Below are positions 1,387-8,531 of a DNA stretch of 8,893 nt, in pieces. The notes below the pieces were generated by a model, which had not been told where the DNA came from, ran no database searches, and was given only the letters and a program-made list of their open reading frames with translations. Source of the stretch: Deltaproteobacteria bacterium (GTDB taxonomy: Bacteria; Desulfobacterota_B; Binatia; UBA9968); assembly GCA_027297485.1 (NCBI GenBank), contig JAPUHZ010000435.1, positions 1-8,893 of the forward strand, in the 5' to 3' direction. How positions within the stretch are numbered: position 1 is the stretch's first letter; every line of letters begins with the position of its first letter. The translations under genes were made by a program, and so were the position numbers.

Positions 1387-1494
1387 TTAAGTTGACACAC
1401 CAAGATCCAGCCGATATGTTTCGATTAGTCTAATTAAGTAAGAGGGCAGAAAACGTTCGTGAGGAAACCCATCCGGGTCACAGTAAACGGGTAG
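1387..1494 (+). pseudogene. duplicate of molybdenum-hydroxylase promoter and gene start (truncated copy)
   Basis: Bases 1387-1491 align with 4714-4817, the promoter and first codons of the [2Fe-2S] subunit gene, at roughly 80% identity by hand, with one single-base indel. From GTG 1459 the copy reads VRKPIRVTVNG and then TAG at 1492-1494. The intact gene reads VKQTIRVTVNGR at the same place. Similarity stops abruptly at the GGG codon: what follows is acyl-carrier-protein-like coding sequence in another frame, not the rest of the Fe-S subunit. Only the promoter, the leader and 11 codons remain. This is best explained as a relic of a second copy of the operon start that was joined to the ACP region by deletion or recombination. 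A functional short leader peptide is a less likely alternative. Confidence 0.78.
1392..1420 (+). promoter_or_regulatory. candidate sigma-70-type promoter in the truncated copy
   Basis: TTGACA (1392-1397) and TATGTT (1415-1420) are separated by exactly 17 bases. Both hexamers and the spacing are identical in the copy at 4719-4747, although the spacer has three substitutions. TTGACA is a perfect -35. TATGTT matches the -10 consensus at four of six positions. It would drive transcription through the ACP remnant towards the membrane acyltransferase gene. Confidence 0.55.
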
Positions 1495-1815
1495 GACAGC
1501 AGCGTAAAGCGGACTTGATTCAAATCCTTGGCACAATCCAGAGACCGCATTGTCCGATCGAAGACATCGACGAGAAACAAAGCCTGGCCGAATCAAATTA
1601 TATTGACCAAAGGGAAGAGCTGCCGCTTCTCCCCTTTGGGAACCCCATCGGTTATGTGCCCGCGCCAAGCCGCGGGGTATACTAATAAATCAGGTGACAT
1701 TGCTTCCCTCGCCGTGTTGCGGATCGTTGTCTATCTTGAGGAAACTTACAAAATCGACCTTCGCGAGAACGGTCTGGACCCGGGAGGTCTCAGCTCTATT
1801 GGCGCCATCCTTTGA
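1494..1815 (+). pseudogene. acyl carrier protein gene, disrupted
   Basis: Two halves of a phosphopantetheine-type acyl carrier protein lie in different frames. The first half (frame of 1506, about 1494-1607) reads KADLIQILGTIQ, then IEDIDEKQSLAES, NYID, which matches helix I and the loop before the active site. The second half (frame of 1690, about 1699-1815) reads ASLAVLRIVVYLEE, then TYKIDLRENGLDP, GGLSSIGAIL and stop, which matches helices II to IV, including the serine (codon 1705-1707) that would carry phosphopantetheine. Joined, they give about 75 residues, close to the family's usual 75-90. Between them is a ~97-base insert with tandem TAA stops. No start codon precedes the first half: its N-terminus is replaced by the duplicated operon-start segment. 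The aspartate normally before the serine falls at the junction and appears as alanine. The gene cannot make a working ACP as it stands. Confidence 0.68.
1606..1699. repeat. small palindromic element inserted in the ACP gene
   Basis: This segment separates the two ACP halves and contains two stem-loops. The first pairs CCAAAGGG (1607-1614) with CCCTTTGG (1632-1639) and continues as an imperfect stem inwards. The second pairs CCCGCG (1659-1664) with CGCGGG (1671-1676) around a six-base loop. ATTG occurs on both sides (1602-1605 and 1699-1702) and might be a small target duplication. The distance between the two ATT codons is 97 bases, which accounts for the frame change, and the insert carries TAA TAA at 1683-1688. 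It codes for no transposase, so it resembles a MITE-like or REP-like palindromic unit. Confidence 0.5.
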
Positions 1816-1836
1816 TCTGATTAAAGGCGCACCACC

Positions 1837-3234
1837 ATGATGAAGATCAAGACTCTTCGCGATACATACCGGACTATCTCTCAGTTTCACGAGAACGATA
1901 GACTTGCTGCCTCGGTACAAAGCTGGCGTTTCTTTGCCTGGTTCACACCTAAGCGCCGCAGACTGTTTTTGTCTCTGGGCGCGATCGCAGCCGGCTTAAT
2001 TGGTTTGCTCAACAGGTACGTTAAGTGGAGCGAGCATTTTACCGCGCCATCATGGCTCGCGCCCTCCTTCGCTATGCCTATCCTCTTGGGCTTTCTTTAC
2101 CTGGTCTACCTCTCGACGAAGAACTTCAGCAGATTACCAGTTGTGGTCAAGCGTCGCCCTCAAATCTCACTGCACATCCTGTTCTGGGCGACTCTTGCGG
2201 TGATCTGGGTGACCCCGAATAACGGAGAACTATGGAGGACGGTCCTCATACTGATCATACTGTCGCTTCCTTATCTGATCTGGCGATGCGGGTACATGAT
2301 AAAGTCGGGTCAGCGAGGCAAGTCTCCGGGCGCTGCCTTTCACGACCACCTGTTTTATCTCTGGCCCATCTGGGACGGGACAAACACCCCGGCCGGCAAA
2401 GGCTCGGACTACCTTTCTCAGTGCGAAGCACAATCCGCCGAGGCGTACGCCCGGTCGTCCCTGGCTGGGATCAAGCTGCTGATTCTTGCCATGCTATGGG
2501 GATTAACCCTCCTGTTCATGGGCGGGCTCGTTTATGGCGATCCGAAGAATCCATTGACAGACCTGCTGGGAGGATACAGCCTTGAGATCCCACGGCTGAA
2601 GAACATCGCCAGAGGCAATATCATTGTTTCGCTGCCCATCGCTTGGATCAGTCTGTACTGTGAGCTAATCTGGCAAACACTGAAAATTGCCGCCCGAGGT
2701 CACCAATGGATCGGAATGCTGCGTCTGTTCGGCTTCAATGTCTTCCGCAATACCTATAAGCCATTGCTGGCAGAATCGATTGTTGATTTTTGGAACAGGT
2801 TTTACTACTACTTCAAGGAACTGTTGGTCGAGTTCTTCTTCTTCCCGACCTACCTGAAATACTTCCGCACACAACCCAAATTACGAATGTTTACCGCGAT
2901 CTTCATGGCGGCATTCGTTGGCAACTTGTATTACCATGTGCTGCAAATGAAGGGCCCACTCGTTCTCGGCGAGTTCGCCAAGATCTGGCAAAGCCTGGGC
3001 TCGCGTATGGTCTACGCTATTTTTCTCACGGTCGGCATCTACGTTTCCATGCTCCGCCAGCAGAGACAAAGGGGGAAACGTGCCGATTCGCATACGGTGG
3101 CGGCGAGAGTCGGCCGGTTGAGAAGAATTGCAGGTGTCTGGACTTTCTACAGCTTGATTAATTTCTGGAATCTACGGTCCCGCCTGACATTACTCGAACG
3201 GACCAAGGTTTTTCTTTCCTTCTTCGGCCTGTAA
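1837..3234 (+). CDS. MBOAT-like multi-pass membrane O-acyltransferase (putative)
   Basis: This is a 465-residue integral membrane protein with about ten hydrophobic segments (roughly 42-58, 76-92, 111-126, 134-149, 211-232, 262-280, 323-339, 350-368, 389-405 and 433-446). Around residues 305-340 the order TYKPLLAESIVDFWNRF then FFFFPTYLKYF resembles the 'RPYLAxSxxDFWRRW...DYxYxPL' core of membrane-bound O-acyltransferases such as DltB and AlgI. His367 in GNLYYH lies where the family's catalytic histidine is expected. Length fits the family (450-500). MBOATs move an acyl group, often from an acyl carrier protein, to a hydroxyl on a cell-surface or secreted acceptor. The gene immediately upstream is an ACP remnant, which supports this call, but that partner is broken and no ligase or SGNH hydrolase is nearby. 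The acceptor is unknown. ATG 1837 and ATG 1840 are both possible; AAAGG at 1823-1827 is a modest ribosome-binding site. The match is remote. Confidence 0.62.
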   Translation: MMKIKTLRDTYRTISQFHENDRLAASVQSWRFFAWFTPKRRRLFLSLGAIAAGLIGLLNRYVKWSEHFTAPSWLAPSFAMPILLGFLYLVYLSTKNFSRLPVVVKRRPQISLHILFWATLAVIWVTPNNGELWRTVLILIILSLPYLIWRCGYMIKSGQRGKSPGAAFHDHLFYLWPIWDGTNTPAGKGSDYLSQCEAQSAEAYARSSLAGIKLLILAMLWGLTLLFMGGLVYGDPKNPLTDLLGGYSLEIPRLKNIARGNIIVSLPIAWISLYCELIWQTLKIAARGHQWIGMLRLFGFNVFRNTYKPLLAESIVDFWNRFYYYFKELLVEFFFFPTYLKYFRTQPKLRMFTAIFMAAFVGNLYYHVLQMKGPLVLGEFAKIWQSLGSRMVYAIFLTVGIYVSMLRQQRQRGKRADSHTVAARVGRLRRIAGVWTFYSLINFWNLRSRLTLLERTKVFLSFFGL

Positions 3235-3686
3235 TATTTCGCCGCCGACATTGCCCCGGTCGCTTTTTTAGCCGCATGCTCTCTGACAGTGGTCCCAAAA
3301 GAAAATTGCAGACCATGGAGTTTAGATGGGCAGTCTGATTTGGGCTGTAGGAACACAAAGCCGGAAAGCCTCTTTCGCCATAAGGTTCTTAAGATGAAGG
3401 TCGAGCAGGCTGATGGGCGCAAGGATCCAGGAGAAAATAGTGGATTGTATAGCGGCGGGGATTGAGGGGTATCTGAATTGAATTATTTTTCTCAAGAGAT
3501 GCTTCGGATTGGGGAGTGTAAGTAGCAGAATAATTACATCTAATTCTGGAAGTTTTAGGAAGATGGCAGTAACCCTCCTCACCGACCACTACTGAGCAAC
3601 TATTGTGGTGGACTCGAAGCATTGGGTTTGACAAGTTACTGTTAACACGCCTAAAGTCTACGGCACTGTGACGTTTAATTACCGTA
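3235..3686. other. gene-free stretch
   Basis: I see no convincing gene on either strand. The open frames here are short, lack ribosome-binding sites and have low-complexity or non-protein-like composition. There is a T6 run shortly after the acyltransferase stop (about 3263-3268) but no clear stem in front of it. TTGACA at 3628-3633 with TAAAGT at 3652-3657 (18-base spacing) is a weak promoter candidate for the downstream toxin-antitoxin pair. Confidence 0.5.
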
Positions 3687-3705
3687 ATACACTGGTCAGT
3701 ATACT
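3687..3705 (+). promoter_or_regulatory. candidate -10 box and operator dyad of the toxin-antitoxin pair
   Basis: TATACT at 3700-3705 is a good -10 hexamer 56 bases before the antitoxin ATG. Overlapping it is an imperfect dyad, ATACACTG-GT-CAGTATAC (3687-3704), with ACTG/CAGT as the perfect inner arms. A dyad over the -10 is where a self-repressing antitoxin would bind. No good -35 is present at the usual distance, so the promoter call is tentative. Confidence 0.35.
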
Positions 3706-3760
3706 CAATGGTTAGATTTGTCCTGAGGGCAATGGTATTCTGCTGGGGGGAGATAGTTTT

Positions 3761-3970
3761 ATGGGTACCCGACAGAGCGTGATTCATAGTGACCCCGAAA
3801 TCCTTGGTGGGACTCCCGTTTTTATCGGGACACGTGTACCAGCGCGGGCGCTGATTGATTATTTGGAAGCAGGGCGGCCGCTTGACGAGTTCCTAGACGA
3901 CTTTCCCAGTGTGACTCGCCAACAAGCGGTGGCCGCTTTGGAAGAAGCCGGTGCGCGTCCTGCTGGATGA
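3761..3970 (+). CDS. DUF433 family antitoxin
   Basis: This 69-residue protein is a clear DUF433 member. The core DPEILGGTPVFIGTRVPAR begins at residue 11 and continues to LIDYLEAGRPLDEFLDDFP, followed by SVTRQQAVAALEEA (about 50-63), the helical, probably DNA-binding part. Members of this family are usually antitoxins that bind and neutralise the DUF5615 PIN-like protein encoded next to them, and often repress their own promoter. The start ATG 3761 has a strong purine-rich ribosome-binding site (GGGGGGAGA, 3745-3753). The gene overlaps the toxin frame by 20 bases, so the two are almost certainly translated together. The dyad at 3687-3704 could be its operator. Full length for the family and apparently intact. 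Confidence 0.9.
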   Translation: MGTRQSVIHSDPEILGGTPVFIGTRVPARALIDYLEAGRPLDEFLDDFPSVTRQQAVAALEEAGARPAG

Positions 3971-4265
3971 GTGCGTCCCGAGGAAGCTCAAACGTGAGCT
4001 TCCCGACCACGATGTTCAGACCGTAACTGAAGTGGGCTGGTCGGGGATTAAAAACGGGCCCCTGCTCCGCCGCGCCGCTCAAGAATTTGATGTATTTCTC
4101 ACCGTAGACCACGGCGTTGAGTATCAGCAAAATCTGCTCGGCCTGGAGCTTGCAATCATTGTAATGGTCGCAGCGACCAATGACATTGATGATCTTCGCC
4201 CGTTGATGTCTCGCGTACGAGAAGTGCTCGGACAAACCTCTCCTGGTAACGTCGTGAAAATTTAA
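3951..4265 (+). CDS. DUF5615 family PIN-like toxin
   Basis: This 104-residue protein belongs to the DUF5615 PIN-like group, predicted ribonuclease toxins related to VapC. It opens with the characteristic strand and acidic pair MRVLLDECVP (Asp6, Glu7), then HDVQTVTEVGWSG, and a second acidic site in LTVDHG (Asp53), where most members have 'TRDxDF'. The hydrophobic strand LAIIVMVA (about 67-74) follows. These acidic residues would hold the catalytic metal. The GTG 3951 start lies inside the antitoxin gene and has GGAAG at 3941-3945 as its ribosome-binding site. The shifted overlap implies coupled translation with the antitoxin made first. Both genes look intact, so the pair is probably functional. 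The phenylalanine of the usual DxDF motif is missing, which is within the variation I would expect. Target RNA cannot be inferred. Confidence 0.87.
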   Translation: MRVLLDECVPRKLKRELPDHDVQTVTEVGWSGIKNGPLLRRAAQEFDVFLTVDHGVEYQQNLLGLELAIIVMVAATNDIDDLRPLMSRVREVLGQTSPGNVVKI

Positions 4266-4483
4266 ATCTAACTTTCGCTAGAGCGCATCGGCAATCAGCT
4301 TGTGCTGATTGAACGGATAATTGAGCTTTGAAACTGTGTTCCTAAATCAAGCCACAGCATTGAGTTCTCGCCCCGCGCTTTTCTAAACGTTAGTCCGACT
4401 TCGGAATCTAAAATAAGTCGCCGGAGGGGCAAGCCAGCCACCGTCCTTGAAGGGAACTGTATTCGGCAACGTCAAATGATGTC
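4266..4483. other. gene-free stretch with a short hairpin
   Basis: No gene is supported. A perfect 8-bp stem (CAATCAGC, 4292-4299, with GCTGATTG, 4304-4311, loop TTGT) follows the toxin gene by 27 bases. It lacks a T-run, so it would be a poor intrinsic terminator but could stabilise the end of the transcript. A second small palindrome, TCCGA-CT-TCGGA, lies near 4395. Confidence 0.4.
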
Positions 4484-4659
4484 GAGAGTGTTGAAAAACC
4501 CTGGTCTAAGCCTGGTCAAAAAGGTCTCAGATGCGAGGCGCGCGAGACACTGACGAGCGGAGGCGTACTTAAGAGGCACGTTGGAGTGAGGCGGTTGAGC
4601 GCAACCATCGCAACGCCTGCTGTCGGCAGGCTATGGCAGATGAGCCTTTTTCAACAGGC
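4484..4659. repeat. MITE-like intergenic repeat with TGTTGAAAAA inverted ends
   Basis: TGTTGAAAAA (4489-4498) and its exact reverse complement TTTTTCAACA (4647-4656) bound a non-coding block. Within it are two tight stem-loops: GGTTG-AGCG-CAACC (4593-4606) and GCCTGC-TGTCG-GCAGGC (4615-4631). TGATGTC occurs just outside both ends (4477-4483 and 4660-4666), which would fit a 7-base target duplication. From memory, similar non-coding blocks with TGTTGAAAAA ends and a GGCGTACTT core recur in deltaproteobacterial and other environmental genomes. There is no coding capacity for a transposase, so it would be non-autonomous. Confidence 0.55.
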
Positions 4660-4713
4660 TGATGTCCATCTGACCGCGTTTGCAAGGTTAAAAATCTTCA
4701 TCGATAACCCACA

Positions 4714-4817
4714 TTAAGTTGACACACCAGAATCTAGCCGATATGTTCCGATAGGTCGAGCAATTGAGCGAGCAGAAAACCTTTGTGAAGCAAACTATCC
4801 GGGTTACAGTAAACGGG
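4714..4817 (+). repeat. intact copy of the duplicated operon-start segment
   Basis: This 104-base block is the partner of 1387-1491. It carries the promoter hexamers, the leader and the first 11 codons of the [2Fe-2S] subunit gene. The two copies match best at the -35/-10 region and over the codons for IRVTVNG. They diverge most between the -10 and the GTG start, where the one-base indel lies. Outside the block there is no similarity on either side. Confidence 0.78.
4719..4747 (+). promoter_or_regulatory. candidate promoter of the molybdenum-hydroxylase operon
   Basis: TTGACA (4719-4724), 17-base spacer, TATGTT (4742-4747). Transcription would begin near 4754, about 30 bases before the preferred GTG start at 4785 but only about 10 before the alternative TTG 4764. 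This favours the GTG. The same hexamers and spacing are kept in the degraded copy at 1392-1420. Confidence 0.6.
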
Positions 4818-5258
4818 CGTGTTTATGAAGAAGAGACAGAGCCGCGCCAGCTCCTTTCCTTCTTTCTGCGCGAAACGATTGGACTTAGAGGAAGTCAAAT
4901 AGGATGTGTCATCGGGGAGTGTGGCGCTTGCACGATACTCCTAGACGATAGGTTGGTAAAGTCCTGTTTGCTATTCGCCATACAAGTGGACGGTCGAGAG
5001 ATCCTCACCATCGAAGGACTTGCGAAAGACGGATCCCTGCACCCGATTCAAGAAGCCTTCGTAAACAAGTACGGTCTTCAGTGCGGCTACTGTACTCCGG
5101 GGATGGTCCTCGCCACCTATGCCCTCCTTCGTCAGAATTCTAAACCGAGTGACGAAGAGATTCGAAAAGGTCTTGCCGGAAATCTCTGTATGTGCACTGG
5201 TTACATGCAGATCGTGGAGGCCGTCAAAGAAGCATCCAGGAGTCTCGAAAATGAATAA
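4785..5258 (+). CDS. [2Fe-2S] subunit of a xanthine dehydrogenase-family molybdenum hydroxylase
   Basis: This is the small iron-sulfur subunit, which passes electrons from the molybdenum site to FAD. It has an N-terminal ferredoxin-like domain with four cysteines in CVIGECGAC and, later, KSC (positions 41, 46, 49 and 61 from the GTG start). A helical C-terminal domain holds the second cluster in CGYC (100, 103) and CMC (135, 137). All eight ligands are present. From GTG 4785 the protein is 157 residues and starts (M)KQTIRVTVNG, typical in length and N-terminus for this family. The frame can be extended to TTG 4764 (164 residues), and an in-frame TAG at 4752 bars anything longer. A one-base indel between the duplicate copies falls before the GTG, which argues that the region between TTG and GTG is not coding. 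The ribosome-binding site is weak. The stop overlaps the next gene's start by 8 bases. Confidence 0.93.
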   Translation: MKQTIRVTVNGRVYEEETEPRQLLSFFLRETIGLRGSQIGCVIGECGACTILLDDRLVKSCLLFAIQVDGREILTIEGLAKDGSLHPIQEAFVNKYGLQCGYCTPGMVLATYALLRQNSKPSDEEIRKGLAGNLCMCTGYMQIVEAVKEASRSLENE

Positions 5259-7680
5259 GTATGTTGGCCGATCCACGAGAAGTAAAGAAGGTCCGCGGCA
5301 CGTCACGGGGAGTGGTTTCTTCACTGATGATATGATGTTTCCCGGAATGCTCTACGCAGTAATGCTGAGAAGCCCGCATGCCCACGCGCGCATTCTCAGG
5401 GTTAATTCTGAGCCGGCCCTCCGTGCTCCTGGAGTCGTTGTCGCCTTTACGCCTAAAGAACTCAAGGAAAAAACAAAACCGTTTAGGCCGGGGCGTTATT
5501 CAGCCGGACTGACAAGACCGATTCAGGAATACGCGGGCGCCATCGAAAAGGTACGCTACGTCGGGGAGCCTGTGGCAGGAATCGCTGCACGCACTCGCGC
5601 CGAAGCTGAAGACGCTCTTGAGTTGGTCGAAGTCGAGTATGAGTCGCTCTCCCCTGTGGTAGAAACGGCCGATGCACTACGACCCGACTCCCCTCCCATT
5701 TTCGAGGAGCTAGGCTCGAATGTGGCCTGGACCGGCACCCTTACTTACGGTGACATCGAAGGCGCCTTTAAAAAGGCGGACAAGATCGTAAAAGAAAGGC
5801 TTAAGATCCATCGCTACAGCTCGACCCCTCTCGAACCCCTGGCCTGCATTGCCTCTTTCGAGGCAGCGAGTAGAAAATTAACCGTTTGGATCAACGCCCA
5901 GGTCCCGGACGTCATCTACGACGCCTTGCGGGACGCTTTTGGTCTGGATGATGTCCGCGTGATCATTCCGGACATTGGCGGCGGCTTTGGGCAAAAGATT
6001 CACCTGATTAAGAACTACGCAGTGCTCACAAGTTTCCTCGCTATGAAGAGCCAGCGCCCGGTCAAGTGGATCGAGGATCGAACCGAGCACATGATGGCGG
6101 GAGGCCACTCCTGCCAGCAAGAGTTTGAGGTTGAAGCCGCAGTGAAAAAGGATGGAACTGTCTTGGGACTCAGGTTCAAAGAGTTCGATGATGTTGGCGG
6201 ATCCGTCGGCACGCTCACGATCCACTTCACGAATAAGCTGAACAACCTTACCAATACTTACAAAGTGAAAAACATTTCGATGCAGGGCCACTCTCTGATT
6301 ACGAACAAGTGTCCCGTGATCCCCAACCGAGGCATCGGCAAGCCAGCCATGTGCTTTGTCTGGGAGAGGATTATGGACCGGATCGCCGACGAGCTAGGCT
6401 TGAGCCCCATTGAGGTGCGCTCAATCAACCTGGTCCCAGCTTCCGAAATGCCCTACGAAACCCCTAACGGGAACATCTACGACAGCGGAGATTACCCAGG
6501 TCTCCTCAAGCGGCTGGTAGATAAGATCGATTACGGCAGGCTCAAAAAAGAGCAAGAAGAGAAATGGAAAAAAGGACGATATCTGGGGATCGGTGTGGTC
6601 ATTGGCGTGGAGCCGGGTGGGAGGAACGCGGCTCGCGACATGGCGGTGTTTCCTGAGATGAGAGAAATCCCAGGAGCCGGCGGAGTAAACGGCGCAATGA
6701 TCAAATTGGAGAAGAACGGGACGATCGCTCTCTTTTTGGGGTCACCGAACGGCGGACAGTCCCATGAAACCACTACCGCCCAGGTTGCCGCAGATGTTCT
6801 CGGGATCTCGCCTGACCGCATCAGCGTCACCACGCCTTTCGACAGCGACCTTGCCCCGTGGGGCGTATCCGCAGCAAACAGCGGCAACAACTTCCATCTC
6901 TACGACATCGGGGCCATTCAGGGGGCCGCGTTGAAACTTAGGGAAAAGATTCTCACGCTCGCAGCTAATATTCTTGTCGCCGCCCCGGCGGAGCTCACCA
7001 TAGAGGATGGAGTTGTCCAGACGAGTCGTTCTCCTGCTAAAAGGATTACCCTTGCCGACTTGGGAAGGCTGGCCTACAGCAACCAATCAGTGATGCCCCC
7101 CGGCTTCGAGGGAGGCTTGCGCACGACTTTTTATTACACCTTCCCGCACGCCCAACCTTATTTGACGCCCGGTCTGGACCGCAAAGTTCGCGCGCAGTTC
7201 ACGTTCTCAGCAGCCGCCCATGCCGCCTCCGTAGAAGTGGACAAAGAAACTGGAAACGTGCACATCATCCGATATGTCATCGTCTGCGACAATGGTACTG
7301 TTATCAACCCGGAAGTGGTCAACGGTCAAATTTACGGTTCGGCTGCGCACGGAATCTCGGTGGCCCTGGGGGAAGGGTTTGTCTACAATTCGGACGGCCA
7401 ACTTTTGACGGTTACTCTGACGGATTATGGAAAGTCCTCGACTCTGGATACTCCCAAGATCGAGGTTGAGCATCGACCTTCCCCCTCCCCCTTTACCGTC
7501 CTCGGGCAGAAGGCGGCGGGCGAAGGTGCGGCTATCCCCTCCCCTGCCTGCATCGCGAGCGCTGTGGAGGATGCCCTAAAACCGTTGGGTGTGAAGGTGC
7601 GAGAGCTGCCTCTTTCACCAGAGGCGATCTGGGGGCTCATTCAAGAGGCTCAAGCTTCAGCAGATAAAGTAAGACCATGA
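5251..7680 (+). CDS. molybdopterin-binding large subunit, xanthine dehydrogenase/aldehyde oxidase family
   Basis: This 809-residue catalytic subunit binds molybdopterin-cytosine dinucleotide or a related cofactor and hydroxylates its substrate with oxygen from water. The a/b hammerhead domain covers about 1-135 (GMLYAVMLRSPHAHARI at 32-48). The Mo-cofactor region begins with GGGFGQK (243-249). NRGIGKP (359-365) stands where the family usually has 'xRGxGxP'. GGQSHETTTAQ (501-511) is the cofactor-contacting segment, and GEG (757-759) supplies the catalytic Glu758. The AYxCSFR loop of form I CO dehydrogenase is absent, so it is not that enzyme, and the substrate is unknown. ATG 5251 is chosen because AGGAG at 5238-5242 precedes it and the protein then begins at the usual point. 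The frame stays open back to 5119, but only inside the Fe-S gene. Its TGA overlaps the FAD subunit's ATG by four bases. One oddity is SAANSGNNF (540-548), in place of the usual serine/arginine-containing loop. Confidence 0.93.
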   Translation: MNKYVGRSTRSKEGPRHVTGSGFFTDDMMFPGMLYAVMLRSPHAHARILRVNSEPALRAPGVVVAFTPKELKEKTKPFRPGRYSAGLTRPIQEYAGAIEKVRYVGEPVAGIAARTRAEAEDALELVEVEYESLSPVVETADALRPDSPPIFEELGSNVAWTGTLTYGDIEGAFKKADKIVKERLKIHRYSSTPLEPLACIASFEAASRKLTVWINAQVPDVIYDALRDAFGLDDVRVIIPDIGGGFGQKIHLIKNYAVLTSFLAMKSQRPVKWIEDRTEHMMAGGHSCQQEFEVEAAVKKDGTVLGLRFKEFDDVGGSVGTLTIHFTNKLNNLTNTYKVKNISMQGHSLITNKCPVIPNRGIGKPAMCFVWERIMDRIADELGLSPIEVRSINLVPASEMPYETPNGNIYDSGDYPGLLKRLVDKIDYGRLKKEQEEKWKKGRYLGIGVVIGVEPGGRNAARDMAVFPEMREIPGAGGVNGAMIKLEKNGTIALFLGSPNGGQSHETTTAQVAADVLGISPDRISVTTPFDSDLAPWGVSAANSGNNFHLYDIGAIQGAALKLREKILTLAANILVAAPAELTIEDGVVQTSRSPAKRITLADLGRLAYSNQSVMPPGFEGGLRTTFYYTFPHAQPYLTPGLDRKVRAQFTFSAAAHAASVEVDKETGNVHIIRYVIVCDNGTVINPEVVNGQIYGSAAHGISVALGEGFVYNSDGQLLTVTLTDYGKSSTLDTPKIEVEHRPSPSPFTVLGQKAAGEGAAIPSPACIASAVEDALKPLGVKVRELPLSPEAIWGLIQEAQASADKVRP

Positions 7681-8531
7681 TTCCTGCATCGTTTGAATAT
7701 TTTTCACCGCGGTCCGTTAAAGAGGCCATCGATCTCCTCTCATCCCACGAGGATGCAAAGCTTCTCGCCGGAGGCCAAAGTCTGGTTCCGTTAATGAAGC
7801 TCCGGCTCGCCAAACCGAGATACATCGTCGATCTCAACCGAATCCCCGGTCTCGACAGGATCCGTGAAGATGGAGACCATATCTTCATCGGAGGCCTGAC
7901 CACGCACGCGCAACTAGAACACTCCGATCTCCTCAAGCAAAAGTGTCCTCTTCTGTCCCAAACGGCTGCCACCATCGCTGATGTCCAAGTACGCAATCAA
8001 GGAACCCTTGGAGGCAGCTTGGCCCACGCTGACCCTGCAGGTGATATGCCGGCCGCAATCCTCGCTCTCGGAGCCGAAATGAAAGCTGTCGGCCCAAATG
8101 GAGAGAGATGGATCAAGGCAGAAGATTTTTTCCTGGGCTTTCTGATGAGCACCCTCGAGCCCGACGAGATCTTAACAGAAATCAAAGTCCCGATTCTAAA
8201 CGGTGTGAAGACTGTCTATCTCAAAGCTGCCCAAAGAGCATCCGGATTTGCGGTCGTCGGCGTGGCCGCTTGTCTTAAGTTGGACAAAAGCGGGATTTGT
8301 GAGGATATGACCATCGGAGTGACAGGCGTCACAGACAAGCCCTACCGGGCGGAAGGTGTGGAGAAAATGCTAAGGGGCAAGAAACTCGAAGCCAAGCTTA
8401 TCGAAGAAGCCGCAGCCGAAGTTACTCGTGACACGGATGTGATTGAAGACATCAATGGCTCCAAGGAGTACCGCTCCCACCTTGCCCGCGTCTACACCGC
8501 CCGAGCCATCGAGACCGCACTGAAAGCTTGA
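7677..8531 (+). CDS. FAD-binding subunit of the molybdenum hydroxylase
   Basis: This 284-residue subunit takes electrons from the iron-sulfur clusters onto FAD and hands them to an external acceptor. It has the VAO/PCMH-type FAD fold of CoxM-like proteins. The N-terminal diphosphate loop is AGGQSLVPLMKLR (31-43), and the second FAD motif is NQGTLGGSLAHADPAGDMPA (107-126). The C-terminal CO-dehydrogenase flavoprotein domain extends from about residue 175. Length is typical. The start ATG overlaps the previous gene's stop (ATGA), giving translational coupling within the operon. There is no four-cysteine insertion of the 4-hydroxybenzoyl-CoA reductase type, so no extra [4Fe-4S] cluster is expected. 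Gene order, Fe-S then Mo then FAD, differs from the M-S-L order of classical cox operons. No XdhC or cofactor-insertion gene is visible in the window. Confidence 0.94.
   Translation: MIPASFEYFSPRSVKEAIDLLSSHEDAKLLAGGQSLVPLMKLRLAKPRYIVDLNRIPGLDRIREDGDHIFIGGLTTHAQLEHSDLLKQKCPLLSQTAATIADVQVRNQGTLGGSLAHADPAGDMPAAILALGAEMKAVGPNGERWIKAEDFFLGFLMSTLEPDEILTEIKVPILNGVKTVYLKAAQRASGFAVVGVAACLKLDKSGICEDMTIGVTGVTDKPYRAEGVEKMLRGKKLEAKLIEEAAAEVTRDTDVIEDINGSKEYRSHLARVYTARAIETALKA

Follow-up and report, generated by a model that had tools for sequence, protein, structure and literature searches.

A second copy of a molybdenum-hydroxylase operon start joined to a broken ACP gene in a contig of the Binatia: a putative relic of rearrangement

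In the 8,893-nucleotide contig of an uncultured member of the Binatia analysed here, the whole of which we call the window, the start of a molybdenum-hydroxylase operon occurs twice, once before the operon itself (block B) and once before the broken ACP gene of what resembles a Dlt operon (block A; Table 1). We consider it slightly better than an even bet, at a probability of about 0.52, that a second, diverged operon start was brought up against this ACP gene by a rearrangement, and that the arrangement seen today is a relic. Block A repeats, in diverged form, the 5' end of the molybdenum-hydroxylase operon; a rearrangement, probably a deletion, would have fused it to the beginning of the ACP coding sequence, with the remainder of the second Fe-S gene and the ligase gene that would be expected before the ACP gene missing at the junction. 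The ACP gene has additionally acquired a hairpin element and a frameshift. Block A may once have headed a full operon, and its promoter would not have been kept for function.

Table 1. Positions of the features discussed, in window coordinates
Feature	Position	Strand	Basis
Block A: repeated promoter, leader and opening codons of the Fe-S subunit gene	1387..1491	+	alignment, 84/105
Promoter-like TTGACA-N17-TATGTT of block A	1392..1420	+	sole promoter-like site in 1264-1900 (1 found; shuffle mean 0.6)
5' part of ACP pseudogene, first codon replaced by end of block A	1492..1594	+	78% to G002 gene; alignment with 8 relatives
Hairpin element inserted in ACP gene	1591..1691	.	AATC copies at 1591-1594 and at 1688-1691; 97 bp net gain
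3' part of ACP pseudogene	1692..1836	+	ASL instead of DSL; an additional base around 1811-1813; 75% to G002
Undamaged gene for a 465-residue membrane protein with a predicted DltB-like MBOAT fold	1837..3234	+	homologues, structure model
Block B: own promoter, leader and first codons of the operon	4714..4817	+	L003 and L005 carry this promoter in the same position
Promoter-like TTGACA-N17-TATGTT of block B	4719..4747	+	pattern found
Fe-S subunit of molybdenum hydroxylase (possible alternative start TTG 4764)	4785..5258	+	Pfam Fer2, Fer2_2
Molybdopterin-binding large subunit	5251..7680	+	Pfam Ald_Xan_dh_C, MoCoBD_1, MoCoBD_2
FAD-binding subunit	7677..8531	+	Pfam FAD_binding_5, CO_deh_flav_C

The first-pass annotation had described the two blocks as a match of about 105 bases at some 80% identity with sharp edges on both sides, and alignment bears this out. 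Blocks A and B agree with a single gap over the columns counted in Table 1, while their flanks fall to chance level (10/30 identical on the left, 6/30 on the right), and the two halves of the pair are the longest direct repeats that a repeat search of the window returned. The longest exact run common to both is 16 bases. We give practically no credence to the view that the likeness is a chance one around promoter hexamers; nothing beyond the consensus hexamers speaks for it, and it is refuted by the shuffle control, in which the local alignment score of 62 compares with a best score of 20 in 1000 dinucleotide shuffles. The identity, moreover, extends to the spacer (14/17) and to the 18 codons counted from TTG 4764 (43/54), with 10/17 in the 17 columns that follow the stretch from -35 to -10. 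The differences between the copies fall on codon positions 1, 2 and 3 in the numbers 3, 2 and 6 (p = 0.12), which is not decisive for coding constraint. An RNA element was rejected, as Rfam gave no match in the window at its gathering score. The duplication of the operon start is genuine.

Both copies carry the same hexamers with the same 17-base spacing, as had been noted, and the earlier contrast between this unchanged promoter and a drifted spacer and leader holds as a description, but not at a level that would count as evidence of selection. The chance of unchanged hexamers under uniform drift is 0.069, and the stretch from -35 to -10 is identical at 31/34 columns vs 53/71 for the rest of the block (Fisher p = 0.067); block A is thus most conserved in its promoter part, by a margin short of significance. 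Likewise as described before, the frame of block A runs for 11 codons and ends at the TAG at 1492-1494, so that block A heads no gene, whichever start codon applies. As to that start, 112 of the 120 homologues listed for the Fe-S subunit start at the residue of GTG 4785 or close to it, and two (P0009 and P0026) have an extension like the one that would begin at TTG 4764; block A keeps the GTG, and the counterpart of the TTG reads GTA there. TTG 4764, which we had favoured at first, was not borne out by this comparison, and we take GTG 4785 as the default start on these alignments, without certainty. None of the 120 listed homologues is an intact protein with the N-terminus of block A (MRKPIRVTVNG), the best agreeing at 9 of 11 positions.

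The operon behind block B encodes all three subunits of a xanthine oxidase family enzyme, with Pfam scores above cut-off for 4764-5258, 5248-7680 and 7677-8531, while the NCBIfam equivalog scores of all three, which would give identity at the level of the substrate (CO dehydrogenase or xanthine dehydrogenase, for example), lie below their cut-offs. We gathered 30 relatives through the large subunit, 61-79% identical to it, mostly from bins of Deltaproteobacteria or Candidatus Binatia with a few from Acidobacteria, Chloroflexi, Acidimicrobiia and Syntrophobacter. At two loci (L003 and L005, in genomes G003 and G005) the Fe-S orthologue is preceded, in the corresponding position, by the same promoter, in one copy each, and by this orthology block B is the operon's own promoter. 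Against the blocks of L003 and L005, block B is 63-64% and block A 60-61% identical, compared with 80% between A and B, so that A either separated from B later than the lineage split from G003 and G005 or derives from a nearer relative. In six class genomes (G011-G015 and G136; L146-L151) the match to the large subunit contains one in-frame TGA each, near its end, which is probably the gene's own stop, because the matching reads through stops. An imperfect inverted repeat at 4489-4656 (19-nt arms, 79% complementary, 130 nt apart) lies about 60 bases before block B and is perhaps a miniature transposable element.

On the 3' side of block A lies an ACP gene that the first reading had not recognised. 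The sequence resembles an ACP gene of G002 (L105), one half of it at 1500-1594 and the other at 1698-1821; in G002 that gene is intact and contiguous, and it begins where block A ends. In eight relatives, inspected by eye, the ACP start lies 9 codons (five relatives) or 11 codons (three) before a conserved leucine, and in the window both of these places fall within the last ten bases of block A; the ACP frame holds no ATG, GTG or TTG between the stop at 1431 and TTG 1515. An open frame with DSL, as in a functional ACP, is therefore absent from 1492-1836, where the start is lost, the hairpin element interrupts the gene, an extra base shifts the frame and the motif is altered. Three such lesions beside a stub that ends at TAG imply decay. 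The core of this interspersed hairpin element occurs in 100 copies in G020, 17 in G007, three in G006 and one in G021, and in none of 8 of the 12 genomes tested. Like its copies at L091, L092, L097 and L101, the element consists of stacked hairpins, often with AATC-like ends, and many of the aligned copies have an extra leading hairpin that the window copy lacks.

Behind the broken ACP gene the membrane protein gene is intact, with AAAGG 9 bases before its ATG at 1837. Homologues were found in 13 of the 148 class genomes (E <= 1e-5), and no sequence match to Pfam MBOAT was obtained up to E 10. A structure model built from 105 sequences reached pLDDT 84 (a first model from 8 sequences, pLDDT 50, was set aside), and a Foldseek search of the PDB with it ranked first 6bug (E 3.5e-5), titled just as a membrane protein, which we take to be DltB, with DltB of 8jem at E 9.3e-5 and TM values of about 0.5; PORCN and MBOAT7 came next after the DltB structures with weaker E values. 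On this model the protein is predicted to have an MBOAT fold of DltB-like form. It deviates at 2 of 112 conserved columns, where the other 104 members deviate at 2.19 on average and 59 of them at two or more, and in a smaller set at 8 of 138 invariant columns, vs 2 to 18 in the others. Judged from these columns it is a normal member of its family, with no decay.

In genome G139 the homologue stands in a row of an AMP-binding enzyme, an ACP, the MBOAT-like protein and a sulfatase-family protein, tested against Pfam; in the other listed contexts neighbours of like size lie in like places, and of these the sulfatase of G002 alone was tested against Pfam. Neither ligase nor sulfatase was found in the window, the best E values with four ligases and four sulfatases of relatives being 0.41 and 0.93. 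The Dlt operon serves D-alanylation, and the row in G139 resembles it in the succession of AMP-binding enzyme, ACP and membrane protein and in the predicted DltB-like fold of the latter. It differs in that the MBOAT-like protein has no Pfam match and that a sulfatase-family protein follows it, and of its genes the window retains only the one for the membrane protein intact. Our literature search returned no paper on the set of ligase, ACP, MBOAT and sulfatase genes, and only unrelated papers when combined with Binatota. In G007 (L126, on G007:C28) four tandem homologues of the membrane protein gene follow a single ACP gene.

The remainder of the window holds further neighbours. Positions 3-617 encode an RluA-type pseudouridine synthase at 38% GC, with 22 listed clusters 94-100% identical to it and a few named relatives from Deltaproteobacteria, Thermodesulfobacteriota, Desulfobacteraceae and Marinimicrobia, and may be a transferred gene or a misjoined contig end. 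A stem with an unpaired base at 640-712, which folds mildly better than shuffles (z -1.62) and which together with its flanks presumably resembles an integron attC site, could mark this low-GC gene as a cassette. The 189-residue ORF at 694-1263 had no match in Pfam, PHROGs or NCBIfam and a weak one, at 25% identity, in one of the 148 class genomes. The gene pair at 3761-4265 (DUF433 and DUF5615) looks like one of toxin-antitoxin type.

Two origins had been proposed for the duplicated block, the deletion of a paralogous operon or the movement of a promoter-leader cassette, and of these the former fits, with a second operon start lying in a rearranged region, whereas the cassette found no support. 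That a mobile promoter cassette which spreads should have landed by chance before the ACP gene is very improbable in our judgement, even though two unrelated genes of the window are preceded by the same promoter block. The further copies before different genes that a cassette would predict were not seen beyond chance in 148 class genomes (the window's own genome is not among them), nor was there any match to the promoter block in plasmids, phages or, by exact pattern, IMG/VR. A 22-base promoter signature searched with at most 3 mismatches occurred in 3 of the 148 genomes, without mismatch at one site each in G003 and G005, where it is the orthologous operon promoter, and with 3 mismatches at one site in G015; the reversed control also gave one match, in G120. 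A DNA search of 26 relatives' genomes returned matches at E <= 10 in 25, the best at E 0.007 over 22 bases, which we read as chance matches. Terminal repeats were not seen at the block edges, and the block carries codons of one gene. An insertion element bringing its own gene start was also discarded, as Pfam and PHROGs showed no integrase or transposase in the four ORFs scanned within 1492-4713 (1528-1815, 1837-3234, 3761-3970 and 3951-4265). The deletion of a paralogous operon has its own difficulty, since the second full operon it had been expected to leave in relatives is not clearly present. With a large subunit of at least 65% identity taken as the close form and at most 6 candidates per genome scored, 27 of the 29 class genomes that have it carry it at a single place; G135 has matches at two partial places, and G026 at one, with another copy on a second contig of the latter's bin (L029 vs L030, 93% identical over 573 bases), which may be paralogues or mixed strains.

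It is also conceivable, though we hold it to be doubtful, that the promoter was captured: the copy of the molybdenum-operon promoter at 1387 would transcribe the MBOAT-like gene at 1837, and selection would keep both while the stub and the ACP gene decay. The captured promoter would, with the same reserve, have put an orphaned DltB-like gene under new control, the gene having outlived its ligase, carrier protein and sulfatase neighbours. A lesion-free gene conserved like its family, the intact hexamers and spacing of the sole promoter-like site in the region, the higher identity from -35 to -10 and the AAAGG before the ATG all agree with this, but the promoter excess falls short of significance, such an acyltransferase would presumably depend on an ACP and the ACP gene next to it is broken, hairpins from the inserted element separate the promoter from the gene, and the branch of the gene since G002 is slightly longer than that of the G002 gene (dN 0.130-0.138 vs 0.107-0.116). 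An assembly artefact, in which 1387-1492 would be a chimeric join between two related genomes, we regard as unlikely. A misjoin is possible at the left end of the window, where GC is low compared with 50-58% in the other genes and near-identical relatives occur in many contigs; 16 bases of exact identity are, however, short for an assembly join between A and B, and the ACP insertion and the gene behind it continue without a break in composition. Against the relic reading itself stand the undecayed MBOAT-like gene, which a mere relic region would not need, and the conservation of the promoter part, insignificant as it is; and the deletion is not observed directly, as the genomes compared include neither an intermediate nor a sister. 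A simulation with substitutions only, at 0.11 changes per site (half of the A-B divergence, 20% of columns), gave about 6 stops for a neutral frame of 465 codons, and 0.25% of the runs were free of stops. Given these expected stops, A probably started to diverge from B earlier than the join, except in the case that the gene was preserved by selection; we favour a recent join of a block A that had diverged earlier, for example as the head of a paralogous or acquired operon, over an old join with a selected gene, perhaps transcribed from block A.

Mobile promoters in the sense of Matus-Garcia et al. 2012 and van Passel et al. 2014 are reportedly homologous promoters before non-homologous genes of a single genome, spread to several places. 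The window is like them in that one promoter stands before two unrelated genes (ACP for A, Fe-S for B), and unlike them in that no propagation is seen in the relatives and that the block carries codons. Both studies are cited in PMC8049555. In the E. coli long-term experiment, promoters were reportedly recruited by rearrangement and non-genic DNA became expressed (uz-Zaman et al. 2024, PMC11101190); the likeness lies in a pre-existing promoter joined to other DNA by rearrangement, and the difference in that the recipient in the window is an old gene pair. Fusions born by deletion have been surveyed (Kaul et al. 2026, PMC12803068), and the window shares with them that one gene's start is joined to another gene, probably by deletion, and differs in that the block A frame stops at the TAG while the ACP is read in another, so that no fused frame results. 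On present evidence the window case is most likely a promoter joined by rearrangement, a kind already known, and not a spreading cassette.

If block A is a mere relic, it shows how rearrangement can leave a live-looking promoter before unrelated genes. If instead block A drives the gene behind it, the window would be an example, from an uncultured lineage, of a natural promoter capture whose donor promoter, junction and retained gene can all be read from a single contig, and such a capture would be a case of natural regulatory rewiring whose scars are still visible.
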